Origin: Corbicula japonica
Lineage: Eukaryota > Mollusca > Bivalvia > Venerida > Cyrenidae
Assembly (NCBI GenBank): GCA_038501625.1
Contig: JAZAYU010000008.1
Span: forward strand, 9,548,938 to 9,612,937
DNA: 64,000 nt
Reading direction: 5' to 3'
Every line of letters starts with the position of its first letter. The stretch's first letter is position 1. This document shows positions 88 through 64,000 of this stretch, in pieces. Made by a program: the position numbers and the translations under genes. Below the pieces are notes generated by a model. It was not told the origin of the DNA and made no database searches. It saw nothing but the letters and a program-made list of their open reading frames with translations.

Positions 88-371
88 TTGCATCATTGTT
101 GAGTAAAGATTGGGTTGGAATTAATTCACCGAGGCGAATTGTTAATTTATACGAGCACCAGAGGGGAAAATGTTAGGTTGGTTCACCCTAGAATCTGTTT
201 TAAAACAGTGGCTAGTATGACTGTTTCAAGGCGGTAAACAACAAGGTCCTCATTTTCGTATATTTTGTGTTGTCTTTGATTATATTATAAACTCATGTTC
301 TGTATACTTTTTGACTGTGTGGACAGTCTGTGTTTTCCCATATCAGTTATTCCTGGTATGCATATTTCACT
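88..371 (+). repeat. Penelope-like element 3'-end fragment
   Basis: A diverged copy of the dispersed 3'-terminal sequence that also follows the reverse transcriptase near 16-20 kb. It ends with the family's typical terminus (mattcctg-atgcatattt). It is 5'-truncated and contains no coding sequence. Orientation is that of the element's sense strand. Confidence 0.7.
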
Positions 372-3185: not shown

Positions 3186-3189
3186 TGGA

Positions 3190-3640
3190 ATATGCATATC
3201 AGGAAACGATACACTCACAAAACACAGCCTCCCTACGTAGCGAAAAGAAGGAGAGGAAAAGCTAGCATGTTTGTTATAAGTATGTCAATTCAAATAAGAC
3301 CCCACAAACAATTCACGATAAAGAGAACCCTCGGGGATATCGCCTTGGAACGTTCAGTGGCAAAACATATTGCCATTGACACTTTAAACCTGGTTCTAGG
3401 GTGCACCAACCTCAAACTTGCCCCCAACAGGTTCTCATATCAACAAACAAGTACAAGTTGTCTTGGTGAAATAACTCCAACTCACCCATCAGCTTAACAA
3501 TGTTGCATGCAAAAGCTCACAAACATATAAAACATAAGAAGCTATAAGCATTGCAAAGCCAAATGGGCGAGTACCCGATGATCTAACCGAGACCATGCCC
3601 CCTGGAGTCAAATTAACAAGAACACGAGTGATTAATCAAA
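3190..3640 (-). repeat. Penelope-like element 3'-end fragment
   Basis: Same 3'-terminal repeat family as at 6387-6932, in the opposite orientation. The terminus lies at the low coordinate (atatgcatatcagg). The conserved internal block (gttctagggtgcaccaacctc and relatives) and the segment leading towards the RT stop are both present. The open frame over it (3192-3497) is a repeat shadow, not a gene. Confidence 0.75.
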
Positions 3641-3649
3641 CATAATCAC

Positions 3650-5300: not shown

Positions 5301-5412
5301 CTGAGATTGGAAACCAGTCTTCAATCTCAAGCATCCGATTGGCTGAAATGGCGACCAGTCGCCATTTTAGCTAATCAGATGCTTGAGATTTGAGACTGGT
5401 TTCCATGCTCAG
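5301..5412. repeat. 112-bp near-perfect hairpin (foldback MITE-like)
   Basis: The two arms are reverse complements around gcgac-ca-gtcgc (5351-5362). They run from ctgagattggaaaccagtct on the left to its complement at 5393-5412. It lies about 100 bp upstream of the TATA box of the macroglobulin-family gene. Related arm sequence recurs near 45400-45490, so this is probably a small dispersed foldback element rather than a regulatory hairpin. Confidence 0.8.
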
Positions 5413-5517
5413 TTTAATAACATTGCGCAAAGGTTAGGCCCTGGGACAATTATTCAATAGATCTGCTCAAGATATGTATCTGGCCTAACTAGAAGGTAAT
5501 CTATGTGAGATCATCAG

Positions 5518-5525
5518 TATAAATA
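5518..5525 (+). promoter_or_regulatory. TATA box of the macroglobulin-family gene
   Basis: TATAAATA stands 48 bp upstream of the ATG at 5573. This would place transcription start near 5545-5555 with a very short 5' UTR. Position and match support a core promoter; no transcript evidence is available here. Confidence 0.6.
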
Positions 5526-5572
5526 GGCAATTCCTTACGTATTCCTTTAGAAAGGATGCAAACGTCAAAACA

Positions 5573-5579
5573 ATGGCAG
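5573..5579 (+). CDS. Exon 1 (start codon, 7 nt coding)
   Basis: ATGGCAG followed by a consensus donor gtaagc at 5580. It ends in phase 1, which joins exon 2 to give MAGLTRFLV. The TATA box 48 bp upstream supports this start. Confidence 0.7.
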
Positions 5580-23500: not shown

Positions 23501-26500
23501 TTACCCGTGTTGTAATCATTCACCAGACTCTAGACCTCGGCATTTTAGGTATACGTTTGGTAAGGGTGTTGCCGGTACTTTGGAGCTGATACTGTCCAAT
23601 GGAAAGAACTCGTATAGCAAAATATACCAGGTAAAGGCTGAAATGCAGTCGTTTGATCATATCAATTCTGAAACGGACATATTATGAATATAATAGGGTA
23701 TTGTTTGTCTAGTTTCGAATTCCACATTTTAACATGCTTGTTAATACAACACATTAAACCCCACCATAGAATTGCTACTTAATTTGATGTAATAATTGTA
23801 AAGGAGCTCATATGGACCTTTACAATAAAAATGACATTTTTGTAGTCTCTTTAAGCATCAAAGGCAAGTAATCACATAAGAATAACGACAAATTCCTTGT
23901 TTATTTATCTAAAAAATCCGTTAAGGAGCACCAACATCGAAATGCTTTTAGATTGAGTCAGGTATTGAACTACAAAAAGTCATGAGATTGTTGTTGTAGT
24001 TGGATGATGGACAAGTCAAACTGAATCTGCCAATTGCGGATGTAGAAGAAGCTTTGCAGCCTTTAAATTCAAAGTATGTTTTTGTTTTATTCATTATTTA
24101 CCAATTATTATGTGAGCTAATAAAGCCTAAAAACTGTTTCGCTTAATAAAAACATTTAACAACAGCTGTTAGGACACCAGTAAAATGCGACACATATGTT
24201 TAACAAAACTGATCAAAGTGTTCATGCCTCCTCAATTCTAAATGAATGTCACATTTCTACTCTCTCGTGCAGCACCTACACAACCTTTTCGAGGATTAAT
24301 CTAGCCTAGCCTTACTATAAATATTGATCTATCTTGGAACAAACCTGTTCGTGTGTTAAAGCTTTTTAAGAAACATCAAAAGGGTGAGGTATGGAATATC
24401 CATATTTGTGACGCCTGCTATAGCAGGTAGACACAAATGGATCATATAGACTGGTGGCATCGGTGGCGTCTTCGTCGGCGTCGACGGTGTCGTCCGGTAG
24501 TCATTCACTTTTAACTTTAAAAACTAAATGTTGCCTATAACTTTGAAAATACTTGTCCCATTCGCTTAATACTTGTATTATATATCATCAGCATGAACCA
24601 AGCAATCCATTACATGAAGAATGATAACTCCTGTTTATCATTGTTTTGAGTTATGCCCCTTTCAAATGCAACTTTAACATGAAACTGAATTTTGCTTATT
24701 TTTTTTGAAAGTAGTCCATTAATTTAATACTTGGACTATATCATCTGCATGATCAAAGTCATCGTTGACAACACAGTTGATAACTCCTGTTTCAATACTT
24801 TGAGTTATGCCCTTTTCAAATGCAACTTTAATAATGGGTGGTATATACGGCCTATAGACGGGTGGTTTCAATATCCCAGCCACTATAGTTTTGGATATTG
24901 TTAACTCACCCCAAGGATATATTTTCTGTTTTGTTTTTTTTTAATTTTGCCTTTGGCGTTGTCTGTGTTATGCAGGATTTATATTCTCAGATCCCCTGTT
25001 AAAAATTTCATTCTGTTTAGTTCCGTCCATTGTTTTCTCGTTTAGGGCAAACCCATTCTTTTACCTGGGGACCATATGCCTCTGAACATGGAATAGTATT
25101 TACATGTATCTGAGAATACCGCATTGAAGGTTTCATGTTCGCCGTCATATGCATTCCAGCGTTTGGGATGGATCAAAATTGAACTGTTTATTGTTGTAAA
25201 TATTGAGTTGCGCTCAACGCGGGGCTAGGCGGCTTGGGCAGTAATATGTATTTCCATTACTGTCCATGAACAGGCTCAATCAAACCGAGCCTGTAATATT
25301 TTCATATTTGTAGTGTTCGGTGGCTTTCAAAGTTCCCTTTTCATCTATTCTAATGCGAGGCTGAATGTTGCCTTTAACTTTGAACGTACTTGTCCTATTC
25401 ACTAAAAACTTGGAATATATCATTTGCTGTGTCAATAAGAACGATAACTCCTATTTTACTATTTTTGAGAAATGTCCCTTTCAAATGCATCTTTAACATG
25501 AAACTGAATGTTGCCTTTATCTTTAAAAGTACTTATCCTACTCAATTTATATTTGAAATATATATCATCTGCATGAAAAAAGCCATGGGTGACAAAATAA
25601 AATGATAACTCCTGTTTCACTTGTTTAGTAATTCCCCATTCAAATGCAATTGTAGGCGACACATGTGTTCCAAGGAACACCAAATTCTAGTTTCGCTTTA
25701 CGCGCTACAAGTTTGTCTTCCAGTAAAATCGTGAGACATGGTTCGACTGCAGACTGGTGGTCATCAGCACCTAGAGACCGGTGGTGGTCGTCAACCACAA
25801 CAGCACGTCCTAACAATCAATACAAGCAAACTGTTCTTACAGTTATGCTAAAGGCTATTGCAACCGAGGATCTGACAGGCCTCACGAGGAATTATACCGG
25901 GAAAATTACAATAGTGGCATATAACGCAATGTTGAAGATAGATGGTGGCGTCAGAACTAGATATTTTAAACCTAACGAAACTTTCGAAATAAAGGTAATG
26001 TTTGTTCAGGGTTTCTTTAAGGTCAGTCTAGTCTGGTGCCTTTATTAGCAACCGACAGACACCTAACTTGTCCAGTGTTCTTTACAGAATTGTTTAAAGG
26101 TTTCTTGGGAACTCTTGAAAAAGTATTTTGAAGTTCGATTATTTTTAATTTATACTATCGTGTTATTGCTAATTTAACTACAAATGCTCTGTCTTTGTAC
26201 GATAATTAAGTACCTTCCTTTTGCTAAACCATGCTATTATTTTATATGTTTGTGTGTTTTTGTGTACAACATTGTCGAGTTGATCGGTGGGTTAGAGCTG
26301 TTTCACCAAGAAAAAAAATTGTGCTTGTTTGTTCATATAATAAGACGAGCAAGTGAAAGGCTGGTGCACTTTGGAACTTGGTTAAAAACCCTATGGAAAA
26401 ACGCTGTGTCACTGACAGTTCAGTAGTAAATTTATTAACTACTGATGATAAATGCTAATACCGTCTATGGTACCTCAAAATTAAAAGAATGTTTGGGATA

Positions 26501-38500: not shown

Positions 38501-41500
38501 AAGAGAGTCTATTCAAGACGATCCTTGGAGCTGCCGGTGTACCGTCCGTCGCAGTTTGTTCCATTTAAGACCGTGTAACTGAACTTACAAAACAGTCTCA
38601 GGTGATTGTATCATCATTCAATGAAGACTGGTAACATTAAGAAACATTAAGCAAATGGAAAGACAGGCATAAGAAGTGTGTGGAAATTGCTTGATGATTA
38701 TAGATGTGGAAGATGGGTCGTTTACTTGACTTCAATTACGCCTGAGATCTAAGCAACGTCATATTGATTTTGACGTGCCCCGGGTATGTGATACACACAA
38801 ATTTGTAATTTGCATAGTGTTGGTGTCCCTGGGTTAATCTTGCTGAATCTTCTAGAGATTAAAGAAAATATATTTAAATGTATGTATGTCTCTTTTTAGT
38901 TTGCTAACATAAATACTTTTTGTTTTATAATCAAATTCTACGAATTTCCCGAACAGCCCTCGTATTAAGATTTCATAATTTTGTGAAGTTGGCGGCCTAG
39001 CAGCCTGGTGACCTAAAAGTCTTATGAAAACAAGATTATTCACACGTAAAATAAAGGCTCCAAGTTATAAAAGCATCCATGACCATTGCAGAGTAAAAGA
39101 ACCAGGATCGCCTCAGGAACGGGGCTACTGCTACTTGTATTACCCAAAGATTAACTCCCTTATTGTTTTGTTCCGTAGCGACAGTAAATAAATCAAATAA
39201 AAGAAAGAAAAACGTTTATGCCACTTCGAGCAGCGGACGCAATGGTCAAGTGGTAACACTGTCTGACTATGAATCCATTGCAAAGATCTCGAGTAAGATG
39301 CCTCGCTTCTCAAACCAAATCTTATTATCGGTCTTTTGGATCAGTCCATACAACCTGGTCTCGTGTCAAGGTGCTTTACTCCTAGCACCTAAAATAAGAA
39401 CGGAGTTATTATACAAGAAAAACATATTTGATTTTATCCTTAAACAAAGATTAATTCAGTAATGATACCATCAAATTATAATTGCTTTTCCTCACCTACT
39501 GTTGTAGATTGTCTCTCAAAATGTGGTGGTTGCGGCTGGCGTGGGTCCATGGTTTACATTGTCAGCGGAAACTCCATATGAAATTGAAGTTAATGCCACA
39601 GAAGAGATGATTCCATCTTTCACAGTTGCTGCATGGTTTACATTACCGGACAACTCGTATCAATCATTAGAGGCGGCTTCTGTACGAACCGTTGTAGAGC
39701 CTCATAGTCAAGTAATTATATTTTGTTTTCGAAATATTTACACTCCAACTTCGTCTTCTACGATGGAGTCTTATTTTTCTAACAAATCATAATTTCTGAT
39801 GGTAAACAGTGTGACGTATTACTTTAAAAGGCGTGGCTACAGTAGAGCCGTTCATTATTTATTGGACGTTGCACAATGTTTTGACGTGTGACGTCGCCGA
39901 GCACGCACGTTTTGCCAAATGTATAAAACCCTGATCAAGAATGATCTGTATGGTTTGACGCATAACTTGCAGTTTTTTGCTAAATTACTACGCGACCGTG
40001 TAAAAAGGCACGCAATGTAGTTTGTAATTTATCATGCTGATGACATAAAGCAACCCCGATTCCTTTAAACTCATACCATATCCTTACGATAAATAACAGA
40101 ACACATGAAAAACATTTTGTTTTTGTATTATATGTATAGAGCACTTGGACAATCACTGTGCAGTGTGTGTGTGTGTGTGTGTGCTTAATGTAAACACATT
40201 TTTAACAAATCATACCAGTGAAACAATACATATATGCGTATAAGCATTTTACATATGTATAAACAAATGCTGCGAAACATCGGACAAATATATAAATCAA
40301 ACAGAATATTTATAAGCGATATTATCTTAACTGCCAATTTTTATTTTTTAAATTTGTCTTGTCCAGTCAATTGTCCAAAGCTGAATGCCTTATTCACTCA
40401 ATCACTTTAGCACGAAAACTTCGTGCAAAAAGGACATCTATCGGATACTTTATTCGACCAATGGAAATTAATTTTCTTCTAATTCACTATCATTCAACCG
40501 AAGAAAATTATATTTCCTTTAAACTCATACCATATCCTTACGATAAATAACAGAACACATGAAAAACATTTTGTTTTTGTATTATATGTATAGAGCACTT
40601 GGACAATCACTGTGAAATTAAAGAACGGGACATACAGGATAAAATAAAAATTGGCAGCTTTCTTCTTAAATCAAAATTACAATACAACCAAATATTAACA
40701 TTTACACTTGACATAATGTTCAGTTATGTTAATTTATGAAAACAAGAATTCATAAACCCAATGACAAAGAAACAGCTAAACGCTCTTTCAAGTTATCTTT
40801 GACATAACCGTCTTTCACATTCTCACTAGCCCATCGGCCATGTCTCTTGAACATACGTTCCTTGATGCCACATTCACTGTTCGCAGCAGCGGTAGCTCCG
40901 CCACTTCTTAACGAATGTAAAGAATACTTTGTAATATCACGAACGTGTGTTTTTAAAGCATTTAAAAACAGTTCACGTAAGTTAGTGTAGGAAGTCCTTG
41001 AACGGGAATTTCTAACTTTATATCCAGCATTTGTCTTTGACAAATTACAGAACAGATAATCATCTCCACCAAGGCCTGTCCACTTGATGTATTTCACAAT
41101 GTTTTCATAAGGACACAAAACAGTGCCTGTTTTAGCAATCGTTAGCCAGTGTCCATCCCTATAAATATCTGTTTTACTTTTCTCAATATAAATAGACATA
41201 TATGACTGCTCAAAAGCTATGTCTGATACCTTTATATTCAATAACTCAGCACTGCGCAAAAAACCTGCATACGCTTAAATAATAGCGCAGATAATTCTTT
41301 GATTTTTGATATTTTTCTCTTCATACATTGAATTATAAACTGCCAAAATAACATCAATAGAAATTGGTTCTTTCTTATTTACAGGTTTAGCTAAAATCCT
41401 TTTGGCGGATTCTAATATATTAATGCTAACTTTAGAATCGGTAGGAGAAATTAAACCATATAATTCATGAAACTATTTGATGGCATAGAAAGCTGTTATC

Positions 41501-44500
41501 ACTGGGACAGGACTATGCGCAGTTTGAATTAAAGAAGATAAATAAAGAGCCACAGTTAAAGTTTTAGCGGGCAAGACATCCCCACTCCCTAAAGAATTAC
41601 TAAAAACCCAATTCGACCAACGTTTAAATGCCAGCTCATACTTTTTAGAAGTGCTTGAAGCTCTTGATTTCATCAGTACTTCCGGGAGTAGGTCGATCTT
41701 GTCCGCCAAAACAGGTGGCAACTCATCTATTTCATTTTTGTGGATCTGAAAAAAAAGAGATTTAGAATAAAACATTTAATAAATACATTATTCACAAAAT
41801 AAAAAATCACTTCTTGTCAAAATAATGCTTTTAATATTAAAGAGCAAAAACTAAACTACCGTTATGAATATGAACAACAGTTACAGATAGTCATCATCAT
41901 CGTCATCATTCATGATCTTCGTCTGACTACGTGAAACAATCAAAATCTCGCAGTTCATATAAACAGATATTTATATAAGAATAATGTTCATTAATATTTC
42001 CGTTCCAGTGAACGTAAATAGCGCTCCAGTGAGTGTAAACAGTGCTCCAGTGAGCGTAAACAGTGCTCCAGTGAGCGTAAACAGTGCTCCAGTGAGCGTA
42101 AAACAGTGCTCCAGTGAGCGTAAACAGTGCTCCAGTGAGCGTAAAACAGTGCTCCAGTGAGCGTAAACAGTGCTCCAGTGAGCGTAAAACAGTGCTCCAG
42201 TGAGCGTAAAACAGTGCTCCAGTGAGCGTAAAACAGTGCTCCAGTGAGCATTTTCTTTTCTTTCTTTTTCAAAAAAGTGTAAAACTGCTCCAGTGAGCAT
42301 ATCAGATATTTCCAGTGAACAAAGCAAGTTAATAAGTAAAACTGTTCCGAAGAGCATTCCTTTAAAAACTACTCCAGTGAGCAAAACGAGAAAAAGTCTT
42401 CACGAAGAAATTGTAATTAACGGTTTAATCTTTATTAAACCTTGCTATTAAATCGGTGTATTGATGTTAAGGGAGACATCTCAAAAAAGGCAGCGTTCTT
42501 GAACTGAGGATTTATTTACCTTTATAGGTAATGTACAAGGCGAGCATGCCGAATCTCAAATCTGTATTACCAAAAATACCAAGACCGTTCTTACACTTAA
42601 CATAATATTTAGACTCTGTCGGCAGAACTAAATACTCTTTTACACTGGAAATAAAACATCCATTTGGACATAACAACGGCCAAAAAGGCGCTGATTTCCA
42701 CACAGGTACAACTAGTATCCCCTTTGCCTGATCTAAGCGCATTTTATTCAAAACCCTGTGGATAAGATAGAAAGGCGGTACAAACAGACCGAACTTCTTT
42801 GCCCAATTCACTGTAAATGCGTCAACTCCTAACGAACTAGAATTCCAAAACTTTGAATAAAATCTTGACAACTTAGCGTTGTGTTCTGAAGCGAACCAAT
42901 CTATACTCAATTTCCCAAATCTTGATTCAATCAGCGAAAACACTTCTGCTGATATACCCCAGTCGTCTTGATCAATAATTTTAGATAAATAGTCTGCTTT
43001 TTCATTGAGAAAACGAGGAATCCATTCCATTTCCAAAGAAATAGAATTGCGCAAACATATATCAAATATACTAATTGCGAGATCCTGTAATTCTTTGTTC
43101 ATAGAACCTTTGGTAACTATAGCAACAACGCCCTGATTATCTGAAAACCAGTTAACCCTCTGATTACTTAAAACGTGAACAAGCGATTTTAATACTGTCA
43201 AAACCGCAGAAAGTTCTCTCCAGGTGGAAGAGTTTCTTCTCTTGTCCAGTGACCATGCGACACGCCATTTATAGTATTAACAACATAACCAGCGAATCCT
43301 AAAGCTGAAGCATCACTGTAAACGACTCAAGAACCGATCTGAGACTGAAAAATATTTCTTAAATTTACAGAATCCAAACGTTCGAGCCAGAATTTTATCT
43401 GCGCGATACTGTTATCAGAAAGAGAAAAATATAAGAATCCCACGTGCGGGATTGTAGAATATCAAGACTCAAGTAACGAGTCATTATTTGTGTCACGTGA
43501 CCTACTATAATACTCATGGAATTATTACATCTAGAATAAACTCCGACGCACATATATTAGTCCAAAATTGAAAGTTTTTAACTATAGCAACAACGCCCTG
43601 ATTATCTGAAAACCAGTTAACCCTCTGATTACTTAAAACGTGAACAAGCGATTTTAATACTGTCAAAACCGCAGAAAGTTCTCTCCAGGTGGAAGAATTT
43701 CTTCTCTCGTCCAGTGACCATGCGACACGCCATTTATAGTATTAACAACATAACCAGCGAATCCTAAAGCTGAAGCATCACTAAACGACTCTAGAACCGA
43801 TCTGAGACTGAAAAATATTTCTAAAATTTACAGAATCCAAACGTTCGAAACAGAATTTTATCTGCGCGATACTGTTATCAGAAAGAGAAAAATATAAGAA
43901 TCCCACGTGCGGGATTGTAGAATACCAATACTCAAGTGACGAGTCATTATCTGTGTCACGTGACCTACTACAATACTCATGGAATTATTACATCTAGAAT
44001 ATACTCCGACGCACCTATATTAGTCCAAAATTTAAAGTTTTTTCTCAATCTTCCTTTTACAAGAATACTTTTTTGCCCCTGTTCGTATTCATGAAAGTCA
44101 TGAGTAAATCTAGTATAATCAAACTCATACTCATCTTTTAACAATGTTTCATTTTTTGGATGCTGGCTGGTTCCCGGGCTGTCTGAATGTATATGGGCAG
44201 TCTCGACGGAAATGGCTGAATTCTCAGCACGCGAAACAGGGACCAGGAGCGGCTGTACCGTAGCTTCCGGAAGTGCTATTGTAACGGGGTCCACCGAAGT
44301 AGGGACGAAAAAGGTTCCCTCTGCCAAACCCAGTGGTAGCTGATCTCTCGGGCGTGCCATAAACTCCAGGCATGTTGCGAACTGGAACATTAAAATCCAT
44401 GGAACTAAATCCCGTAGTTCCTGAACGTTTCGCGGTAGGGATTTTACTGGCTTGCTTCTCTTTTTCGCTTGTTTAGCTTTTTCGTCTATGCTACTATTGA

Positions 44501-47500
44501 GTTCGTATTGTATTTTATGTCCTTCAAATTTCCAACTTAAATTTTTCTTGGATTTCAATTTGTTCACTTCTGAAGTCACTGACCTTGAATTTCCTTGTAC
44601 TTCGTCCCTTAAAACTTGAAACTCCTGTCTCTGAGTTCTAAGTTCATCTAGCACAAGCTGCAGTTGACTACTAAACGCTTGTGAACTATCATTTATCTGC
44701 AAACCTTGACCACGTGGCCAAAAGTCCGAATTCTCCTCTGCCATAATAATTACACACACTATTATAAATTTAAATTTGTCTTGTCCAGTCAATTGTCCAA
44801 AGCTGAATGCCTTATTCACTCAATCACTTTAGCACGAAAACTTCGTGCAAAAAGGACATCTATCGGATACTTTATTCGACCAATGGAAATTAATTTTCTT
44901 CTAATTCACTATCATTCAACCGAAGAAAATTATATTTCTTAAATGCAGTACAGCAGAGTCGTAGCTCCGCCCTAAAAGTAGTTTATATCCCAGAGTTCCT
45001 AGCGCCAACGTACACAGGTCATGTCTTGGACCGTGAACTGTGTTTTATACATTGCGTTTTGCGACGAGTTGCTGCGAAAATGCGTGCAGTCATTCAGTTT
45101 GTCGTCAACGTGGCTGTTTCAACAGCTATACAAAAATGCCGTTGTATCACGAATTCTTCTCTTAATTTCTGTATTAATGAGAGTATATGTGTGTGTAAAT
45201 ATGAGGATTGAATCGATATTTGATGATCTCAATTTGGGTATGAAAAACAGTTGGATTGTTCGGGCTTCGGGCTTCACACACTTTAAACAACCCAACTGTT
45301 TTCCATACCCAAATGGAGATCATCGAATATCGATTCAATCCTTTCATAATATATCTGGTCCCAACATTATAAAAATGACAATAGAGAACCGACTAAAATC
45401 TCAAGGATGTGATTGGATGAACTGGATACTTTCTCCATTTCAGCCATGTAGATGCTTGAGATTCGAGCCTGATCTCCAAGCTCAGTTTTATAATCTTTGT
45501 CACATATTAATTAGTTGAAATATATTGATAAACGACAAGTACTTTGTACAGCTTTTATACTAATCTACATTTTCAATCATCTTGGTATAATATGCTCGAT
45601 TTATGAATATAAAGTTAGTTCCCGTTTCCCGGTTCCTTATTCCTTTTTCAGCGTTAAGTTGGTTCCTGTTTCCCGTTTCCTTTTTCGAAAAAGGAATAGG
45701 GAACTGAGACATACAGTTCCCGTTTCCCGGTTCCTTATTCCTTTTTCAGCGTTAAGTTAGTTCCTGTTTCCCGTTTCCTTTTTCCTTTTTCGAAAAAGAA
45801 ATAGGGAACTGATACATCTGTTCCCGGTTCCTTATTCCTTTTTTAGCGTTAAGTTAGTTCCCGTTTCCTTTTTCCTTTTTCGAAAAAGGAATAGGAACTG
45901 ATACATACAGTTGTTTTGTTGCTGCTCCTGTTGCTATTGTTGTTGTTGTTGTTGTTTCTGCTTACTTATCTGTCCTCATAATGTTCTGTATAGACAGGCT
46001 ACATACTACTTGGTTAATTTGATGAAAGCGAACATTGGTTCAGTGACTGATGGCTTCGTTTTCGGCTAGCGTGGCAGTTTTACACTATAAATTGTTAGAA
46101 ATAGACGACCTTATTGGCTTTTACAAAACTTTTTTTTGTAATTCCATAATTTTGATATCTTTTTCAAGGGCTTCAAATTGCCGCTCTTACTGTGTTTAGG
46201 CTGTCCTTTTTCTGATATGCAGATATAACCTGTTTGTACAGTTAAGCTCATGATAAGAATTTTAAATAAAACATGAAATAATTTCATTTCGCGGGGACGA
46301 ATTTTCGCTCAAAATTCACAAATGATAATTGCGAACGGGCATACATTCGTTCTATCCAGACATCAGACATCACATTACATGGTGCTATTCCGCCGAGTTT
46401 TGAATTCGGGCATTTTTCCTAGCGCGAAATTTATGAAAAGTAAAAATTAACTTTTTCCAAGAATTTTCTGTGTGAAAGAGAAATGTTCAAAAGGGAAGAT
46501 GATTTGACCTGCGTTACGAAAATCGTTACTATAATCTCCAGTTCCTTTTTCGAATCTGAATAAGGAATAAGGAACCAGTTCCCGTTTCCTTATTCGCGCG
46601 AAAAAGGAACTGGCAAATATAATGAAATGTAGTTGATTGTTTGTTTTCTGCGAGCAGTTTCTAGATAAAAGCCATTATTCTTAAAAAGGGGGAGATAACT
46701 TTAACACTGATTGATAATGTGTGTATGAGATCTGAACAAAAAACTTCAGTTCCTTTTTCGAATATGAATAAGGAATGAGGAACCAGTTCCCGTTTCCTTA
46801 TTCGAATCTGAATAAGGAATAAGGAACCAGTTCCCGTTTCCTTATTCGCGCGAATAAAGAACTGGCAAATATAATGAAATGTAGTTGATTGTTTGTTTCC
46901 TCCGAGCAGTTTCTAGATAGAGGCCATTGTTCTTAACAAGGGGGAGATAACTTTAACACTGATTGATAATGTGTGTATGAGATCTGAACAAAAAACTTCA
47001 GTTCCTTTTTCAAATCTGAAAAAGGAATAAGGAACCAGTTCCCGTTTCCTTATTCGAATCTGAATAAGGAATAAGGCACCAGTCCCCGTTTCCTTATTCG
47101 CGCGAATAAGGAACTGGCAAATATAATGAAAAGAAGTTGATTGTTTATTTTCTCCGAGCAGTTTCTAGATAAATGCTGCTGTTATGAACAAGGGGGAGAT
47201 AACTTCAACAATGATTGAAAATGTGTGTATGAAATCTGTACAAAACTTCTGTTCCTCTTTCGAATCTGAATAAGGAATAAGAAACCAGTTCCCGTTTCCT
47301 TATTCGAATCTGAATAAGGAATAAGGAACCAGTTCCCGTTTCCTTATTCGCGCGAATAAGGAACTGGCAAATATAATGAAATATGGTTGATTGGTTGTTT
47401 CCTCCGAGCAGTTTCTCGATAAAAGCCATTGTTCTTAAAAAAGGGGGAGATAACTTTAACACTGATTGACAATGTGTTTATGAGATCAGAACAAAAATCT

Positions 47501-50500
47501 TCAGTTCCTTTTTCGAATCTGAATAAGGAATAAGGAACCAGTTCCCGTTTCCTTATTCGGATCTGAATAAGGAATAAGGAACCAGTTCCCGTTTCCTTAT
47601 TCGCGCGAATAAGGAACTGGCAAAAATAATGAAATGTAGTTGATTGTTTGTTTCCTCCGAGCAGTTTCTAGATAAAAGCCATTGTTCTTAACAAGGGGGA
47701 CATAACTTTAACACTGATTGATAATGTGTGAATGAGATCTGAACAAAAAACTTCAGTTCCTTTTTCAAATCTGAATAAGGAATAAGGAACCAGTTCCCGT
47801 TTCCTTATTCGAATCTGAATAAGGAATAAGGAACCAGTTCCCGTTTCCTTATTCGCGCGACATAGGAACTGGCAAATATAGTGAAATGTAGTTGATTGTT
47901 TGTTTTCTCCGAGCAGTTTCTAGATAAATGCTGCTGTTATGAACAAGGGGAAGATAACTTCAACAATGATTAATAACGTGTGTATGAAATCTGTACAAAA
48001 CTTCAGTTCCTTTTTCGAATCTGAATAAGGAATAAGGAACCAGTTCCCGTTTCCTTATCCGCGCGAAAAAGGAACTGGCAAATATAATGAAATGAAGTTG
48101 ATTGTTTGCTTTCCGTGAGCAGTTTCTAGATAAGAGCCGCTGTTATGAACAAGGGGGAGATAACTTCAACAATGAATAAAAATGTGTGTATGAAATTTCA
48201 ACAAAACTTCAGATCCTTTTTCAAATCTGAATAAGGAATAAGGAACCAGTTCCCGTTTCCTTATTCGAATCGGAATAAGGAATAAGGAACCAGTTCCCGT
48301 TTCCTTATTCGCGCGAATAAGGAACTGGCAAAAATAATGAAATGTAGTTGATTGTTTGTTTTATCCTAGCAGTTTCTAGCTAAAAGCCATTGTTCTTAAC
48401 AAGGGGGAGATAACTTTAACACTGATTGATAATGTGTGTATGAGATCTGAACAAAAAACTTCAGTTCCTTTTTCGAATCTGATAATTAAGGAATAAGGAA
48501 CCAGTTCCCGTTTCCTTATTCGAATCTGAATAAGGAATAAGGAACCAGTTCCCGTTTCCTTATTCGCGCGAATAAGGAACTGGCAAATATAATGAAATAT
48601 GGTTGATTGGTTGTTTCCTCCGAGCAGTTTCTCGATAAAAGCCATTGTTCTTAAAAAGGGGGAGATAACTTTAACACTGATTGATAATGTGTTTATGAGA
48701 TCTGAACATAAAACTTCAGTTCCTTTTTCGAATCTGAATAAGGAATAAGGAACCAGTTCCCGTTTCCTTATTCGAATCTGAATAAGGATTAAGGAACCAG
48801 TTCCCGTTTCCTTATTCGCGCGAATAAGGAACTGGCAAAAATAATGAAATGTAGTTGATTGTTTGTTTTATCCTAGCAGTTTCTAGCTAAAAGCCATTGT
48901 TCTTAACAAGGGGGAGATAACTTTAACACTGATTGATAATGTGTGTATGAGATCTGAACAAAAAACTTCAGTTCCTTTTTCGAATCTGAATAAGGAATAA
49001 GGAACCAGTTCCCGTTTCCTTATTCGAATCTGAATAAGGAATAAGGAACCAGTTCCCATTTCTTTATTCGAGCGAATAAGGAACTGGCAAATAAAGTGAA
49101 ATGAAGTTGATTGTTTGCTTTCCGTGAGCAGTTTCTAGATAAGAGCCGCTGTTATGAACAAGGGGGAGATAACTTCAACAATGATTAATAATGTGTGTAT
49201 GAAATCTGTACAAAACTTCAGTTCCTTTTTCGAATCTGAATAAGGAATAAGGAACCAGTTCCCGTTTCCTTATCCGCGCGAAAAAGGAACTGGCAAATAT
49301 AATGAAATGAAGTTGATTGTTTGCTTTCCGTGAGCAGTTTCTAGATAAGAGCCGCTGTTATGAACAAGGGGGAGATAACTTCAACAATGATTAAAAATGT
49401 GTGTATGTTCTAGAAATGAGAATGCTTTTTAACTTGTTTTTATTCCTTAATCGTGTCTTTTGGCGTCAATTCACTTTTATCACAATATTGGATGATCGAA
49501 ATGTGCGCCGCAGCTTCTTCAAACGTCGCGATTTTTATTAGAAGTTAACATTTACTCATTAGCATGAAACCAGCACTACTCTTATACAAATTATGGCAAC
49601 TTTTTGAAACTTTGCATATTGATTTCAGAATTATCACCAATTAAGGCAACATTAACAATTAGCCGCTAAAATGGCACTGTGTAATGTATTAACTGTTTAA
49701 AGTAAATTTTTGAATTCAAAATCATGGCGCTTTTTGACGTGAGTCGCAAATCGCTATCTCGGTTTGATAAAGTGTGTGTAATTTCTTTATTTTAAAAGAT
49801 TTTCCGTTGAAGTTCAGCATACCTGTTACCAAATGATGTCTTAACTAACAGTGAAATTTGCTTAAAGATGTGTTCAGTAGTTTTCTTTTTATTCAAAAAG
49901 TCTACGATGTATTGGGACAACCCTCGTACACTGTATGAACATGCGACAAAACCTGTATATAATGAGTAAAGTGTTATAATGTATGTTTTTTTTCAAAATT
50001 TCTAGACATACATGTAAGTGACTGTTAAAAATTAAATAAATAACTGTTGAATTACTGAAAATTTCAATCAATCAAACTTAATTAATAATTTTACAATGAA
50101 TCATATATTTTTGATTAATATCAACCACATACCGTAAATTGGTTTATTTTGGCCTTGTTTAAAAATTTGCCTAATTGGCCACCATGATGAAAAGGCCAAA
50201 ATTAAACACACTAAAATATGTCACAGGTGAAAATTCAGCCCATTTAGTGCAAACACAACAACAATACAGATTGACTTTCACACGTCATCAACGCTGACCA
50301 CTATTTATCGCTTATCAAACCAACCAGATAAATCTCATAATTTTTAATTTAATTACTGTATTTCATTCAGTTTGTTGGATTATTGCGTGCTGCAATAAAT
50401 GTTCTGAGAATGTCGATCTTAAAATATTTTATGCATTACACGTGACAAAGAACGTATCTGTGTTTATTTTTTGCCACACAATGATAAATGGCCAAAATTA

Positions 50501-53500
50501 AACTGGCCAAAATAAAACACAGGTATTATGGGGCAAAATGGACAAAATATCACGACACCAAAATATCCCAATTTACGGTATTGAGGTCACTTAAGTTTTA
50601 GAAACATAAATGATCATCAGAAATACCTAATAATTAAGATAATACATTCATTATATATATATAGGATTTCTAAAATGTGACATGTCTTAATAGTTAATAA
50701 AAGTTTCATTTATCACAGAAGTTTTACTAAGATTTATTTAAAATTTTATCACACATGAGGAGGTTGGCTTCACTCGTGCCGGTGTTTGAATACCAGTTCT
50801 ACCCAGGAGGTCAAAACATCCGCCTGAAAGTATCGCTACTCCATTTAAGTCACCCCTGTCCAGGGGGTTAGACGTACCACCTGACAACAGAGGGTGACGG
50901 AGTGCATCGAGTATCTGCCACCCAGTCACGTTTTGATATAATAAATAAGATAATAAATAATACTGACTCATTAAAAGATTTTTATGACTAGCCTACAGTT
51001 TATACATTTCAGCTTGCATCTTAGTATAACTATAATTTTTATTTAGAACATATCATAATAATTATTACACTTTTGTTTCACGCGCTAGTCCTAGAGCCTG
51101 AGAGCACTCTTAACAAATTCCAGACATCAAGAACAAAACAGTCGTAAATATACAAGCATAGTTTTACAAATTGTAATAGTCAGTTTCACAAATATTAAGT
51201 CATATGTTATAAGTGACCATAGTAGCATGGTGAACAATTACCATTGAAAAAGGAAGTTGACAAGACTTTGCACATTAATAAAGTTGATATGGTGCAATCG
51301 TTATTTTTACTAATTCACAGTTTACATGCAATACACCTGCAGTCTTTACCATTCCAAGATGCTATAAGATTTTTGAATTGACTGAAGTTTGTGGTGTTTC
51401 TGTATTCTTCTGGTAAAGAGTTCCAAAGCACAGGAGCAGCAAACCTAAATGAGTTTTTACCGAATTTGGTAGATTTAACGCTTGGAATTTGTAGGATGTT
51501 AGAGTATCTGAAGCTGTAGCTGACATTCTTTTTTTTAACAATATTTTCCAAGACAACTGGAGCTAGACCATTTAAAATTTTAAAAGTTTCTAACGCCATT
51601 GTTCGCATGCGTCTAATGTGTAGGCTTGGGAGATTGATCTTAGCGAGAAGTTGGTCATAGGTTGATGTATAGTCTGAATATACAAAACGAAGTGCTCTTT
51701 CTTGTAATTTCTCCATCTTCATTGTATTTGTTGTAGAACAAAAATGCCATGCCATTGGACAGAAGTTAAAATTTGACAGTATAAAGGTGTGAAATATAGT
51801 TAACCTGTTAAGTTTACACAAGTTTTTGCCCAATTCTTTTCATAATATTTAGTTGTCTACCTGCCTTTCTGCATAGATTACTTATATGAACATCAAAGTT
51901 TAAGTTGTAATCAATATCTATACCTAACGGTTTTACAACATCATCACATGACAGTTTTGATTGACCAATATTGAATTCAGGTTTCTTATCATGAGTTTTT
52001 CTTCCGACAGCTATAGCTTGGAATTTATCAGGATTTGCCTGCATACAGTTAAAACTGAACCAATCAATTAGAATTTTGCTTTCTTCTTCTAGTACGGATA
52101 TAAGTTCGTTGTAATTTGGTGAGTGAAATGAAAGCGTGTTGTCATCAGCATAGTTATAAAGGTTACTTTTCTTAACAAAACAGAATATATCATTTATAAA
52201 GACATTAAAGAGAAGAGGGCCAAGAATAGACCCTTGAGGTACCCCCTTTTTAATGCTGTCCCATTTACTTACTACATTCCCAATTTTTATTTGTTGTTTC
52301 CTATCTGTAAGGTATGATTTTAGAAGAGAGACTGCCTTTTCAGAAAGACCATATGCATGTAATTTTGCAAGAAGTATGTCATGTGGGAGGCAGTCAAACG
52401 CCTTGGACAGATCCATTAGAATAGCAGCAACATATTCATTTTTGTCAAGTGCATATTTCCAATCTTCCAGTAATCTTAAAAGGGTTGTTTGACAGCCATG
52501 GCCCTTGCGAAAAGCACATAGGAAATTATTTAAAATCCTATCAAAATACTGCTCGACATTATAATTTTTGACATTGCCAGATATAATTATGTTTGAAAAG
52601 CCAATTATAACAATTTATTGTTTACAAGACCGATTTTGAAATTATGTAAACACTTATAATCCTATTCAGGCTATTGTTATATTGTTTTCAGTGTTGTATA
52701 CTTTAACTTACCGGTTATATCACGTGTTTTCTCGGACAGCAGGGTCTGGAACCCAGAGGAATGAAGTTTAATGATTATTGTCCTCTATTATTATATTATC
52801 TACATGTAGAAAACGACGGAAGTTTCATCAAAATAGCTAAATTAAAGAAATTTCAGTTTCATGGAAGTCGCCATTTTTTGTGTTTGACAGGTGCGCGCTA
52901 AAAACCTCGCGCCCGGAAACGGCTGTTTTTAGACTGATCGGGACCTAGGTCTACTCTTTATGAAACGCGTTTGTCACATTCGTAAATTCTTTCGTAAATG
53001 GGTATCGCAGTTTACGATACGACACTATCGTAAATTCTTAATGAAACGCAGCCAATATTTGTCAGTTCCTTAAGTTCCTTATATGACAGAGTAAGTAAAC
53101 GGGAACTAGTTCCATATTTCTTATAAAGATTCCAAAAAGGACCTGAGGTATCAGAATCAGAACAGCTTTCTCACACATAAAACTATCATTGTTGAAGCTA
53201 TATCACCTATAGTCAGATCAACGGATTTACCTTAAAGCCGATTTGGTAATAAAAAATTCAACTAAAATTGATCATATTTGCCAGTTCCTTATTCGCTCAA
53301 ATAAGGAAACAGGAACTGTTCATACAACTTTTCTCCCCCTTGTTCAGAACAACGGGTTTTATCTACAAACTGCTTTGAGAAAACAAACTATCAACTACAT
53401 TTGATCATATTTGCAAATTCAGAATCGAATAAGGAAACGGGAACTGGTTCCTTATTCCTTATTCAGATTCGAATAAGGAAACGGGAACTGGTTCCTTATT

Positions 53501-56500
53501 CCGTATTCAGATTCGAAAAAGGAACTGAAGTTTCTGTACAGATTTCATACACACATTATAAATCATTGTTGAAGTTATCTCCCCCTTGTTCATAACAACG
53601 GGTTTTATCTAGAAACTGTTCTGAGAAAACAAACAATCAACTACATTTCATTATATTTGCCAGTTCCTTATTCGCTCGAATAAGGAAACGGGAACTGGTT
53701 CCTTATTCCTTATTCAGATTCGAATAAGGAAACGGGAACTGGTTCCTTATTCCTTATTCAGATTCGAAAAAGGAACTGAACTTTTGTACAGATTTCATAC
53801 ACACATTATCAATCATTGTTGAAGTTATCTCCCCCTGGTTCATAACAACAGGTTTTATCTAGAAAGGGTTCGGAGAAAACAAACAATCCACTACATTTCA
53901 TTATATTTGCCAGTTCCTTATTCGCTCGAATAAGGAAACGGGAACTGGTTCCTTATTCCTTATTCGCTCGAATAAGGAAACGGGAACTGGTTCCTTATTC
54001 CTTATTCAGATTCGAAAAAGGAACTGAAGTTTTTGTACAGATTTCCTACACACATTATAATTCATTGTTGAAGTTATCTCCCACTGGTTCATAACAACGG
54101 GTTTTATCTAGAAACTGTTCGGCGAAAACAAACAAACAACTACATTTCATTATATTTGCCAGTTCCTTATTCGCTCGAATAAGGAAACGGGAACAGGTTC
54201 CTTATTCCTTATTCAGATTTGAAAAAGGAACTGAAGTTTTTTTGTACAGATTTCTTACACACATTTTCAATCATTGTTGAAGTTATCTCCCCCTTGTTCA
54301 TAACAACGGGTTTTATCTAGAAACTGTCCGGAAGAAAAACAATCAACTGCATTTCATGATATTTGCCAGTTCCTTTTTCGCTCGAATAAGGAAACGGGAA
54401 CTGGTTCCTTATTCCTTATTCGCTCGAATAAGGAAACGGGAACTGGTTCCTTATTCCTTATTCAGATTCGAAAAAGGAACTGAAGTTTTTGTACAGATTT
54501 CATACACACATTACAAATTATTGTTGAAGTTATCTCCCCCTGGTTCATAACATAGGGTTTTATCTAGAAACTCTTGGGAAAAAACAAACAATCAACTGCA
54601 TTTCATTATATTTGCCAGTTCCTTATTCGCTCGAATAAGGAAACGGGAACTGGTTCCTTATTCCTTATTCAGATTCGAATAACGAAACGGGAACTGGTTC
54701 CTTATTCCTTATTCAGATTCGAATAAGGAAACGGGAACTGGTACCTTATTCCTTATTCAGATTCGAATAAGGAAACGGGAACTGGTTCCTTATTCCTTAT
54801 TCAGATTCGAAAAAGGAACTGAAGTTTTTGTACAGATTTCATACACACATTATCAATCATTGTTGAAATTATCTCGCCCTTGTTCATAACAACGGGTTAT
54901 ATCTAGAAACTGTTTTGAGAAAACAAACAATCAACTACATTTCATTATATTTGCCAGTTCCTTATTCGCACGAATAAGGAAACGGGAACTGGTTCCTTAT
55001 TCCTTATTCAGATTCGAATAAGGAAACGGGAACTGGTTCCTTATTCCTTATTCAGATTCGAAAAAGGAACTGAAGTTTTTGTACAGATTTCATACACACA
55101 TTATCAATCATTGTTGACGTTATCTCCCCCTTGTTCAAAACAACGGGTTTTATCTCGAAACTGCTCATAGAAAACAAATATTCACCTACATTTCAATATA
55201 TTTGCCAGATCCTTATTCGCTCGAATAAGGAAACGGGAACTGGTTCCTTATTCCTTATTCAGATTTGAATAAGGAAACGGGAACTGGTTCCTTATTCCTT
55301 ATTCAGATTCGAAAAAGGAACTGAAGTTTTTGTACAGATTTCATACACACATTATCAACCATCGTTGAAGTTATCTCCCCCTTGTTCATAACAACGGGTT
55401 TTATCTAGAAACTGTGCGGAGAAAACAAACAACCAACTGCATTTCATTATATTTGCCAGTTCCTTATTCGCTCGAATAAGGAAACGGGAACTGGTTCCTT
55501 ATTCCTTATTCAGATTCGAATAAGGAAACGGGAACTGGTTCCTTATTCCTTATTCAGATTCGAAAAAGGAAATGAAGTTTTCGTACAGATTTCATACACA
55601 CATTATCAATCATTGTTGAAGTTATCTCCCCCTGGTTCATAACAACGGGTTGTATATAGAAACTGTTCGGAGAAAACAAACAATCAACTACATTTCATTA
55701 TATTTTCAAGTTCCTTATTCGCTCGAATAAGGAAACGGGAACTGGTTCCTTATTCCTTATTCAGATTCGAATAAGGAAACGGGAACTGGTTCCTTATTCC
55801 TTATTCAGATTTGAAAAAGGAACTGAAGTTTTTGTACAGATTTCTTACACACATTTTCAACCATTGTTGAAGTTATCTCCCCCTTGTTCGTAACAACGGG
55901 TTTTATCTAGGAACTGTCCGGAAAAAAAAACAATCAACTGCATTTCATGATATTTGCCAGTTCCTTATTCGCTCGAATAAGGAAACGGGAACTGGTTCCT
56001 TATTCCTTATTCGCTCGAATAAGGAAACGGGAACTGGTTCCTTATTCATTATTCAGATTCGAAAAAGGAACTGAAGTTTTTGTACAGATTTCATACAGAC
56101 ATTATAAATCATTGTTGAAGTTATCTCCCCCTGGTTCATAACAAAGGGTTTTATCTAGAAACTCTCCGGAGAAAACAAACAATCAACTGCATTTCATTAT
56201 ATTTGCCAGTTCCTTATTCGCTCGAATAAGGAAACGGGAACTGGTTCCTTATTCCTTATTCAGATTCGAATAAGGAAACGGGAACTGGTTCCTTATTCCT
56301 TATTCAGATTCGAAAAAGGGACTGAACTTTTTGTACAGATTTCATACACACATTATAAATCATTGTTGAAGTTATCTCCCCCTGGTTCATAACAACGGGT
56401 TTTATCTAGAAACTCTTCGGAGAAAACAAACATTCAAATGCCTTTCATGATATTTGCCAGTTCCTTATTCGCTCGAATAAGGAAACGGGAACTGGTTCCT

Positions 56501-59500
56501 TATTCTTTATTCGCTCGAATAAGGAAACGGGAACTGGTTCCTTATTCCTTATTCAGATTCAAAAAAGGAACTGAAGTTTTTGTACAGATTTCCTACACAC
56601 ATTATAATTCATTGTTGAAGTTATCTCCCCCTGGTTCAAAACAACGGGTTTTATCTAGAAACTGCTCGTAGAAAACAAATATTCACCTACATTTCATTAT
56701 ATTTGCCAGTTCCTTATTCGCTCGAATAAGGAAACGGGAACTGGTTCCTTATTCCTTATTCAGATTCGAATAAGGAAACGGGAACTGGTTCCTTATTCCT
56801 TATTCAGATTCGAAAAAGGAACTGATGTTTTTGTGCAGATTTCATACACACATGATAAATCATTGCTTAAGTTATCTCCCCCTGGTTCATAACAACGGGT
56901 TTTATCTAGAAAGGGTTCGGAGAAAACAAACAATCCACTACATTTCATTATATTTGCCAGTTCCTTATTCGCTCGAATAAGGAAACGGGAACTGGTTCCT
57001 TATTCAGATTCGAATAAGGAAACGGGAACTGGTTCCTTATTCCGTATTGAGATTCGAAAAAGGAACTGAAGTTTTTGTACAGATTTCATACACACATTAT
57101 CAATCATTGTTGAAGTTATCTCCCGCTGGTTCATAACAACGGGTTTTATATAGAAACTGTTCGGAGAAAGCAAACAATCAACTACATTTCATTATATTTG
57201 CCAGTTCCTTATTCGCTCGAATAAGGAAACGGGAACTGGTTCCTTATTCCTTATTAAGATTCGAATAAGGAAACGGGAACTGGTTCCTTATTCCTTATTC
57301 AGATTTGAAAAAGGAACTGAAGTTTTTGTACAGATTTCTTACACACATTTTCAATCATTGTTGAAGTTATCTCCCCCTTGTTCATAACAACGGGTTTTAT
57401 CTAGAAACTGTCCAGAGAAAACAAACAATCAACTGCATTTCATTATTTTTGCCAGTTCCTTATTCGCTCGAATAAGGAAACGGGAACTGGTTCCTTATTC
57501 CTTATTCGCTTGAATAAGGAAACGGGAACTGGTTCCTTATTCGTTATTCAGATTCGAAAAAGGAACTGAAGTTTTTGTACAGATTTCCTACACACATTAT
57601 AATTCATTGTTGAAGTTATCTCCCCCTGGTTCAAAACAACGGGTTTTATCTAGAAACTGCTCGTAGAAAACAAATATTCACCTACATTTCATTTCATTTG
57701 CCAGTTCCTTATTCGCTCGAATAAGGAAACGGGAACTGGTTCCTTATTCCTTATTCAGATTCGAATAAGGAAACGGGAACTGGTTCCTTATTCCTTATTC
57801 AGATTCGAATAAGGAAACGGGAACTGGTTCCTTATTCCTTATTCAGATTCGAATAAGGAAACGGGAACTGGTTCCTTATTCCTTATTCAGATTCGAAAAA
57901 GGAACTGAAGTTTTTGTACAGATTTCATACACACATTATCAATCATTGTTAAAGTTATCTCCCCCTTGTTCATAACATCGGGTTTTATCTCGAAACTGTT
58001 CGGAGAAAACAAACAATCAACGACATTTCATTATATTTGCCAGTTCCTTATTCGCTCGAATAAGGAAAAGGGAACTGGTTCCTTATTCCTTATTCCGATT
58101 CGAATAAGGAAACGGGAACTGGTTCCTTATTCCTTATTCAGATTCGAGAAAGGAACTGAAGTTTTTGTACAAATTCATACACATATTATCAATCATTGTT
58201 AAAGTTATCTCCCCCTTGTTCAAAACAACGGGTTTTATCTAGAAACTGTTCTGAGAAAACAAATATTCACCTACATTTCATAATATTTGCCAGTTCCTTA
58301 TTCGCTCGAATAAGGAAACGGGAACTGGTTCCTTATTCCTTATTCAGATTCGAAAAAGGAACTGAAGTTTTTGTACAGATTTCATACATACATTATAAAT
58401 CATTGTTAAAGTTATCTCCCCCTTGTTCATAACAACGGGTTTTATCTAGAAACTGTTCGGAGAAAACAAACAATCAACTACATTTCATTATATTTGCCAG
58501 TTCCTTATTCGCTCGAATAAGGAAACGGGAACTGGTTCCTTATTCCTTATTCAGATTCGAATAAGGAAACGGGAACTGGTTCCTTATTCCTTATTCAGAT
58601 TCGAAAAAGGAACTGAAGTTTTTGTACAGATTTCATACACACATTATCAATCATTGTTAAAGTTATCTCCCCCTTGTTTATAACAACGGGTTTTATCTCG
58701 AAACTGTTCGGAGAAAACAAACAATCGATTACATTTGATTATATTTGCAAGTTCCTTATTCGCTCGAATAAGGAAACGGGAACTGGTTCCTTATTCCTTA
58801 TTGAGATACGAATAAGGAAACGGGAACTGGTTCCTTATTCCTTATTCACATTCGAAAAAGGAGATTCTGGAGAATTCTTGGAAAAAGTAAATGTTTACTA
58901 TACATACATTCGTTTTTTTCGCGCTAGGAGAAAAGCGCGAATTTAAGACTCGGCGGAATTGCACCATGTTTTATTATTTCTAGAAATATATAATAGCGCG
59001 AATGTATGCCCGTTCACAATAATCACTTGTGGATTTTGAGCGAAAAAGGAAACGGGAAACAGGAACCAACTTAACGGTGAAAAAGGAATAAGGAACCGGG
59101 AAACGGGAACTGTATGTATCAGTTCCCTATTCCTTTTTCGAAAAAGGAAAAAGGAAACGGGAAACAGGAACCAACTTAACGGTGAAAAAGGAATAAGGAA
59201 CCGGGAAACGGGAACTGTATGTATCAGTTCCCTATTCCTTTTTCGAAAAAGGAAAAAGGAAACGGGAAACAGGAACCAACTTAACGCTGAAAAAGGAATA
59301 AGGAACCGGGAAACGGGAACTAACTTTATATTCATGCTCGATTTTAGTGTGGTTTTGACAAAATATTGCCATTAAAAATTGTTCAAAGCATTAAAATATA
59401 TTGTTTTTCTAATAAAGCTTTATAAAGTTGTTTTTCCAAAACACGAAATAAGTTTAATGATGACATGGTGGATTTAATTGTAAGAATCTAGGTTATCAAC

Positions 59501-62559: not shown

Positions 62560-64000
62560 AACATCGCCTAGCCACATTAGCACGATTACCAGCCCATCAC
62601 ACAACGCCGCCTAGCCATATTAGCTCGCTAAACAGCCCATCCCACTACACCACCTAGCCACATTAGCACGCTAACCAACCCATCCATATACACCGCCTAG
62701 CCGCATAAGCGTGCTAACAACCCCACCCCACTACAGGGCCTAGCCACATTAGCACGCTAACCACCCCATCTCATTACACCGCGTAGCCACATTAGCATGC
62801 GTAACATCCCATCCCACTTCACTGCCTAGTCCCTTATGCACACTAATCATCCCGTCCCACAACAACGCCTAGCCACTATACAATGCTTATTATGCCATCC
62901 CACTACAACGCTAAAGCCAGATTAGCATGATTACCATCCCTTTCCACTACACCATCTATCCACATAAGCATAATTACCATCCCTTCCAACAACACCGCCT
63001 TGTCACATTAACAGGCTAATCATCCCATCCCACTACAATGCCTAGCCAAATAATCCCGCTTATCAGCCCATTCCACTACACCGCCTTGCCACATTAGCAC
63101 GCTTACCATCCCATCCCACAACACCTCCTCATTAGCATGCTTATTATCCCATCCCACTACACCGCCTAGCCACATTAGCATGATTACCACCCCTTCCCTC
63201 AGCACCGCCTAGCCACATGAGCAAGCTAATCATCCCATCGCACTACACTGCATTGCCAAATTAGAAAGCAAACCAGCGCATCCCACTACAGCGCCTAGCC
63301 ACAAGAACATGCTAATCACCCCGTCTCACTACACCTCCTAGCCGCATTAGCAAGCTATCCATCCCATCCCACTACACCACCAAGCCACATTAGCAAGCTA
63401 TCCATCCCATCCCACTACACCGCCAAGACACATAAGCAAGCTGTCCATCCCATCCCACTACACCGCCAAGACACATTAGCAAGCTGTCCATCCCATCCCA
63501 CTACACCGCCAACCCACATTAGCAATCTATCCATCCCATCCACTACAGAGCCAAGCCACAGTAGCACGCTTACCAGCCCATTCCACTACAGAGCCAAGCC
63601 ACATTAGCAAGCTATCCAGCCCATTCCACTACAGAGCCAAGCCACATTAGCAAGCTTACCAGCCCATCCCACAACAGAGCCAAGCCACATTAGCACGCTA
63701 TCCATCCCATCCCACTACAGAGCCAAGCCACATTAGCACGCTATCCATCCCACACCACTTCAGAGCCTAGCCACACTAGCACGCTATCCATCCCATACCA
63801 CATCAGAGCCTAGCCACATTAGCACACTATCCATCCCATCCCAATTCAGAGCCTAGCCACATAAGCACGCTATCCATCCCATACCACATCAGAGCCTAGC
63901 CACATTAACACGCTACCGACCCCATCCCACTTCAAAGCCTAGCCACATTAGCACGCTATCCATCCCATCTTAATTCAGAGCCTAGCCACATAAGCACACT
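62560..64000. repeat. ~40-bp tandem array running off the window
   Basis: More than 35 diverged units of cctagccacattagcacgct and atcccatcccactacac. It is GC-richer and C-biased on the + strand. Minus frames inside are artefacts. The true right end is not visible. Confidence 0.92.

Follow-up and report, generated by a model that had tools for sequence, protein, structure and literature searches.

The 64,000-nucleotide stretch of Corbicula japonica DNA analysed here (the window; C8:9548938-9612937) contains, at 45603-59335, an element of 13,733 bp which very probably (about 0.85) belongs to a noncoding, multicopy family of cut-and-paste DNA transposons with a foldback build and has since decayed. 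The assignment is based on exact common termini, a 9-bp duplication at 16 sites, inverted satellite-like arrays, a common centre poor in open reading frames (ORFs) and differences in array length. The left end of the element starts with ATGAATATAAAG at 45603 and the reverse complement of this sequence finishes at 59335; the outer 84 bp at both ends form a perfect inverted match, which is followed inward by about 290 bp of gapped match at high identity, and the exact 9-bp direct repeat GCTCGATTT is located outside both ends (45594-45602 and 59336-59344). Between left and right, the outermost 105 bp align with 98 matches, no mismatches and one 7-bp indel. An earlier note on this DNA had described perfect inverted outer edges with a direct repeat outside them and had taken the whole block as one inserted, foldback-like unit, a description that is borne out by other copies having their own 9-bp duplications at identical ends.

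Copies and insertion footprints in the genome

The genome searched comprises 1.07 Gb in 1630 contigs, where the exact terminal 20-mer is present in 104 copies (56 forward and 48 reverse; reversed control 0) and the terminal 198 bp gives at least 80 matches with the best 40 of 148 candidates scored. Flanks were read for 102 of the 104 exact ends and for two inexact ends, and 103 of these 104 are usable in the all-pairs test described below. The flanks are distinct at each end, apart from three sharing pairs, which are C1446/C1125 (300/300 bp), C1553/C13 and C12/C12 (60/60 bp each). The family contains small copies, namely C331 (280 bp, terminal repeats only) and C173 (1.18 kb), each with a 9-bp duplication, and its duplication-flanked ends lie up to 43.7 kb apart (C4, known from its ends alone).

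No empty allele, for which the earlier note had proposed to look, was found, as the unique part of each flank of the window copy occurs once in the assembly. The right flank has one full occurrence, with 11 further matches to parts of its exon region at 70-79% identity, and the left flank has one full-length occurrence among the best 40 of 6229 candidates, where the remaining matches are due to a high-copy repeat (about 45055-45343) or are weaker pieces. Searches for the terminal 20-mer and a 26-mer array core in viral contigs, and for the array core in bacterial and archaeal contigs, gave no match, these viral and prokaryotic collections being little informative.

Perfect 9-bp duplications flank 10 of the 27 adjacent plus/minus terminus pairs, window included, while among 702 mismatched pairings none has zero or one difference and three have two differences. 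Two pairs are not part of this test, C200 195435/217359 because its right flank is N and C1179 because its left flank is limited to 11 bp; the two ends of C1179 are included in the all-pairs test and have no exact mate there. In the all-pairs test (103 ends, 5253 pairs), comparison over 9 bp yields 17 exact mates, together with 4 pairs that differ at one position and 21 that differ at two. Exact mates number 6 at 6 bp and one each at 7 and 8 bp, and none occur at 10 to 12 bp; composition-shuffled flanks have a mean of 0.04 exact mates and a maximum of 2. As C13 and C1553 have one flank in common, the 17 exact mates represent 16 sites. The earlier note had let its proposal stand or fall with other copies having 9-bp duplications at these same ends, and they do, so that the family is a discrete mobile unit with a target-site duplication of exactly 9 bp at independent sites.

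Plus and minus ends are in proper order on one contig at 12 of the 16 sites. At two of these, C13 and C200, an inner minus end comes before the mate, so that the unit measures 43-46 kb (in C200 across a gap). At the other four sites the order or the location of the mates is not the expected one: C545 (+/+), C693 with C11 (+/+), C147 with C529 (-/-), and C693 inside-out. In the last of these, the 6.2 kb between two elements (C693:155641-161882) carries both halves of one 9-bp duplication, an arrangement that could have arisen by tandem duplication, reflect a circle or be a loop in the assembly.

Structure of the arms

Long inverted arms consisting largely of tandem repeats enclose the centre of the element. 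Each arm contains, from outside inward, terminal units, a homologous subterminal block and an array, which is the order that the earlier note had described; the two arms are unequal, with about 3.8 kb on the left and 6.2 kb on the right, and in this respect the description needed correction. The left terminal domain (45603-45909, plus strand) contains three units of about 100 bp starting with ATGAATATAAAG, and the right one (59042-59335, minus strand) contains 2.7 copies of a 105-bp unit and ends with CTTTATATTCAT; as tandem repeats, these units are delimited at 45617-45912 and 59042-59321, about three per end. The left subterminal block (45910-46540, plus strand) is about 380 bp longer than the right one (58863-59041, minus strand), which is homologous to about 46302-46468 in the left arm, and the additional sequence has no counterpart in the right arm. 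The left array (46541-49408, plus strand) possesses 12 spacer anchors at a spacing of 206-255 bp, and the right array (53169-58862, minus strand) possesses 22, the innermost of which is degenerate. The array unit is mostly about 250 bp and consists of a spacer plus 44-bp cores, where one to four cores, usually two, lie between successive anchors. Terminal unit and array monomer have a stretch in common (local score 42, versus a maximum of 27 in 500 mononucleotide shuffles).

In the other copies, 20 arms were read, with 6 to at least 34 array units per arm, and some arms reach about 9 kb or more. The nearest relative of an array spacer in another copy belongs to the same arm type in 153 of 153 cases (nine arms, seven copies), and therefore the arrays probably turn over within an arm, with no exchange between arms; exchange of array units between the two arms of one copy was considered and is unsupported. 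Likewise, each of the 69 spacers of the window copy and the C75 copy has a same-arm spacer in another copy that is more similar to it than any spacer in the opposite arm of the copy to which it belongs. Left and right arms are thus, as far as their sequences can tell, separate lineages. The outermost 105 bp of the C75 copy match at 102 of 105 positions between its arms.

Two of the stretches read, L015 and L017 (C1446 and C1125), represent one insertion site on two contigs, with flanks 300/300 identical and different array unit spacings, which may reflect either an allelic change of the array or a difference in assembly.

Centre and coding capacity

The C75 copy, which serves as the reference for the centre, is 17.7 kb long, has no duplication itself, and contains 6 spacer anchors on the left, 29 on the right and a centre of 7,643 bp. 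Of the 19 other stretches compared, 16 match this centre at about 96-100% over 0.4-5.6 kb each, as do C1 and, in part, the window; two of the stretches (L015 and L017) are the same site. The centre is missing from three stretches, namely L011 and L024, which end before the array does, and L020, where a dissimilar sequence is present. As a correction, the centre of the window copy is not empty: it contains two family-centre blocks and a fragment of a non-long-terminal-repeat (non-LTR) reverse transcriptase. The blocks (both plus strand) are 49409-50628, equivalent to positions 4858-6082 of the C75 centre (97.1%), and 52548-53168, equivalent to positions 7024-7643 (96.5%), while positions 1-4857 are missing. 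Between the blocks, 941 bp of the C75 centre are replaced by a foreign stretch of 1.9 kb (50629-52547, minus strand) carrying the reverse transcriptase fragment (RVT_1; PF00078, E 4e-24). Judged relative to C75, the window copy is by sequence comparison a derivative, in which 4.86 kb of the centre next to the left array have been lost and a further 941 bp replaced by the stretch with a long interspersed nuclear element (LINE) fragment. The reverse transcriptase ORF was excluded from the family, since the foreign stretch in which it lies does not match the C75 centre; its relatives include a Pinctada imbricata protein (69%; best 8000 candidates by word sharing scored), which fits a bivalve host. 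A stretch resembling a miniature inverted-repeat transposable element (MITE), with 24-bp inverted ends (50129-50581), is located inside the block common to the copies and would therefore have been present before they parted. The middle between the arms is variable in the family: the C107 copy (8.7 kb, intact duplication) has a centre unlike that of C75, the window copy has a deleted one, and C331 has none.

No transposase was recognised in the copies read. Translated in six frames with stops replaced by alanine, 7.2 kb of the C75 centre contain no Pfam match better than E 0.11; the longest ORF in the post-array parts of 18 stretches is 111 amino acids, and the longest in 9 kb of the C1 copy is 85 amino acids. 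The C107 copy was read whole in the hope of a coding copy, and its longest ORF comprises 101 amino acids and reaches into the arm. Frames of up to 203 amino acids in the arms lie in or beside the arrays, and those of 241 and 214 amino acids in L028 run through its N gap. A copy with a transposase between its arms, which the earlier note had suggested seeking, was accordingly not encountered in the Pfam scan of the C75 centre or among the ORF lengths of the other copies. The earlier note had also stated that no transposase was left in the element; none was found, but a simple loss in the window copy does not account for this, because the other copies read are likewise without long ORFs. Elsewhere the genome encodes transposases of Mutator-like elements (MULEs), with at least 56 PF10551 matches among the best 150 of 166 candidates, five of them in open frames of 834-1079 amino acids.

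Alternative explanations and proposed mechanism

Several results weigh against the assignment to a mobile foldback family. In the other 17 of the 27 adjacent pairs, between 4 and all 9 of the flanking positions differ (one of these pairs, C99, has a possible duplication with a 1-bp indel, as seen by eye), 70 of the 103 usable ends have no exact mate, none of the 56 PF10551 matches lies between paired termini when positions are compared by eye, no MULE bearing such termini came to light as far as the search extended, and some of the near-identity of the centres could come from repeats collapsed in the assembly. An origin in place, as a segmental inverted duplication or palindromic satellite with the 9-bp repeat arising by chance, would agree with satellite-like arrays in inverted order, but it is contradicted by 104 exact termini at flanks that differ save for the three sharing pairs and is refuted by the 9-bp duplications at other copies, which leaves it a negligible likelihood.

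The pairs without duplication have both ends exact, lie 17.7-37 kb apart and possess flanks that are unrelated rather than decayed; 17 such pairs among 27 therefore point to either exchange of flanks between copies or assembly chimaeras. The chances are about even that these copies, and only these, are chimaeras of the assembly, in which case the real elements would be fewer and simpler, an explanation compatible with the foldback transposon. In agreement with it, an N run starts exactly at the terminus C200:217359, a terminus is located 11 bp from the beginning of contig C1179, and some flanks have their mate at another place. Also in agreement, the contigs carrying pairs that lack a duplication tend to be shorter than those of the pairs that have one (median 1.5 versus 3.6 Mb, p 0.06), and the pairs themselves tend to span a greater length (p 0.03). 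On the other hand, such pairs also occur inside contigs of 7-16 Mb (C5, C11 and C28), and copies with unlike flanks have been reported for Galileo, where they were read as chimaeric (PMC3573991; this and the other papers cited are used in excerpt). A more far-reaching reading, which is put forward tentatively and is somewhat less probable than its opposite, is a giant, wholly noncoding mollusc foldback family whose arms are separately evolving arm-specific satellites with outermost ends kept identical, in which most long copies would have received shuffled flanks through ectopic exchange and which would be a major source of inversions and translocations in this genome.

For the foldback transposon, movement in trans is proposed, where a transposase made elsewhere in the genome would bind the terminal units, join both ends, cut, and insert the element at staggered nicks 9 bp apart. 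The terminal sequence alone may suffice, as suggested by the 280-bp C331 copy, which contains only terminal repeats and has its own duplication. The units of about 250 bp may have begun as copies of the terminal binding sequence, with which they have sequence in common through the terminal units, and could then have grown or shrunk in number by unequal exchange within one arm. By analogy, a Mutator-like transposase is the most likely helper, because a 9-bp duplication is the common length of MULEs and Rehavkus and because MULE genes are present in the genome; membership of Mutator stays provisional, as no transposase is tied to the family. This last fact equally suits a transposase from outside the Mutator superfamily moving the same element, with a foldback build reached by convergence, as does the occurrence of this build in unrelated superfamilies, Galileo being moved by a P-type enzyme (PMC3573991), and the remark of the Tetris authors on exceptions to the Mutator rule (PMC4079207). 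Such a helper is nevertheless unlikely, as the duplication is exactly 9 bp at 16 sites, the usual length for MULEs and Rehavkus (PMC6446971), versus the 7-bp flanks of Galileo (PMC3573991).

Surroundings of the element

The window copy is likely located in an intron. A Pfam match to A2M_BRD occurs to its right (59597-59914, plus strand), while the exon-like stretches 25656-26048 and 39508-39792, recognised by eye, have no Pfam match, and an Rfam scan of the window at gathering thresholds gave nothing. To the right of the A2M_BRD match lie minisatellites at 60477-61832 (units of about 145 bp) and 62561-63997 (43-bp units). To the left, a very high-copy repeat (45055-45343; 6229 first-look candidates) ends about 250 bp from the element. 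The region 40750-44819 (minus strand) looks like a DIRS-type retroelement, as it contains a tyrosine-recombinase ORF (PF00589), a second ORF with a match to the Dam model and a sub-threshold RNase H-like match (RVT_3), and a 463-bp direct repeat at 43114-44042. Further left, 17664-20078 (minus strand) contains ORFs, partly present twice as judged by eye, which we take to resemble Penelope-type reverse transcriptase; 18282-18590, the piece of this region that was scanned, has no Pfam match.

Comparison with known systems

The Foldback (FB) elements of Drosophila have inverted arms of tandem repeats and a 9-bp duplication, as does the family described here, and differ from it in their short repeat units. 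Helentrons possess their own end type, without inverted arms and without a 9-bp duplication. A satellite-carrying bivalve element of the Helentron or pearl type was thus ruled out by the inverted ends and the 9-bp duplication, no search having been aimed at Helentron ends.

The exact 9-bp duplication falls within the 8-11 bp characteristic of Mutator elements. It is also shared with Rehavkus/NOF, together with a minisatellite beside the inverted repeat, which in Rehavkus precedes the 3' inverted repeat (PMC6446971). However, Rehavkus is coding, with a PHD-finger transposase and inverted repeats of 26-400 bp (PMC6446971), while the 7.2 kb of the C75 centre contain no Pfam match, the other centres being judged by ORF length. 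Complete arthropod MULEs differ in measuring 1,875-9,972 bp, with inverted repeats of up to 1,193 bp (PMC13359780). Galileo of Drosophila resembles the present family in its long inverted ends, in the internal tandem repeats of about 210 bp in one group and in some chimaeric copies with unlike flanks, but it belongs to the P superfamily, with 7-bp flanks and inverted ends of up to about 1.26 kb (PMC3573991); the present family has a 9-bp duplication, a single mate at 7 bp in 5253 pairs and no Pfam match in the C75 centre. Tm1, a Mutator/Foldback family of root-knot nematodes, has inverted ends that are composite, vary in length and contain internal repeats; its duplications are mostly of 9 bp (8-10 bp in 45 of 53 complete elements), and small MITE-like forms occur (PMC3169594). 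The variable composite ends, the 9-bp duplications and the small forms are likenesses, while Tm1 differs in its repeat unit of about 14 bp, its elements of 1.1 and 2.6 kb and a known transposase-coding form (PMC3169594).

Among the titles and abstract openings listed in searches of the open PMC literature, none reports a foldback element for bivalves or molluscs, subscription papers and Repbase lying outside this scope. In the excerpts used, the only foldback mention of an oyster paper is a Tetris reference (PMC8268682), and a review of giant transposons has one foldback passage, on the Ising elements of Drosophila (PMC6431247). The family suggests that noncoding units of at least 14 kb, and up to 43.7 kb between duplication-flanked ends (C4, from its ends alone), can be mobilised by cut and paste with long satellite arrays between their ends; such units greatly exceed the foldback elements of the papers cited in size. 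Its size series, from 280 bp to tens of kb and from 0 to at least 34 units per arm, bears on which part of the arm is needed for movement and on why arrays grow, and it joins in one family three open topics: the origin of satellites from transposons, the rearrangement of chromosomes by foldback elements and the mobilisation of foldback elements without transposase.

The build is that of foldback elements, and its nearest counterpart, compared by description and not by sequence, is Tetris of Drosophila virilis, a noncoding foldback element with a terminal flanking domain, tandem repeats of about 220 bp and a middle domain, in which the tandem repeats and the terminal domain have a 37-bp stretch in common (PMC4079207). 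Tetris has duplications of 8-10 bp, its allelic copies differ in array length, and no transposase was found for it (PMC4079207). The two families thus resemble each other in being noncoding, in domain order, in sequence common to terminus and array, in duplication size, in variation of array length and in the transposase not having been found. They differ in size, as the inverted repeats of Tetris extend to 1,735 bp (PMC4079207) and the arms here measure about 3.8 kb (left) and 6.2 kb (right) in the window copy, with about 9 kb or more in some others. On the figures in these excerpts, the arms are well beyond the inverted repeats of Tetris (1.7 kb), Galileo (about 1.26 kb) and the arthropod MULEs (1.2 kb).

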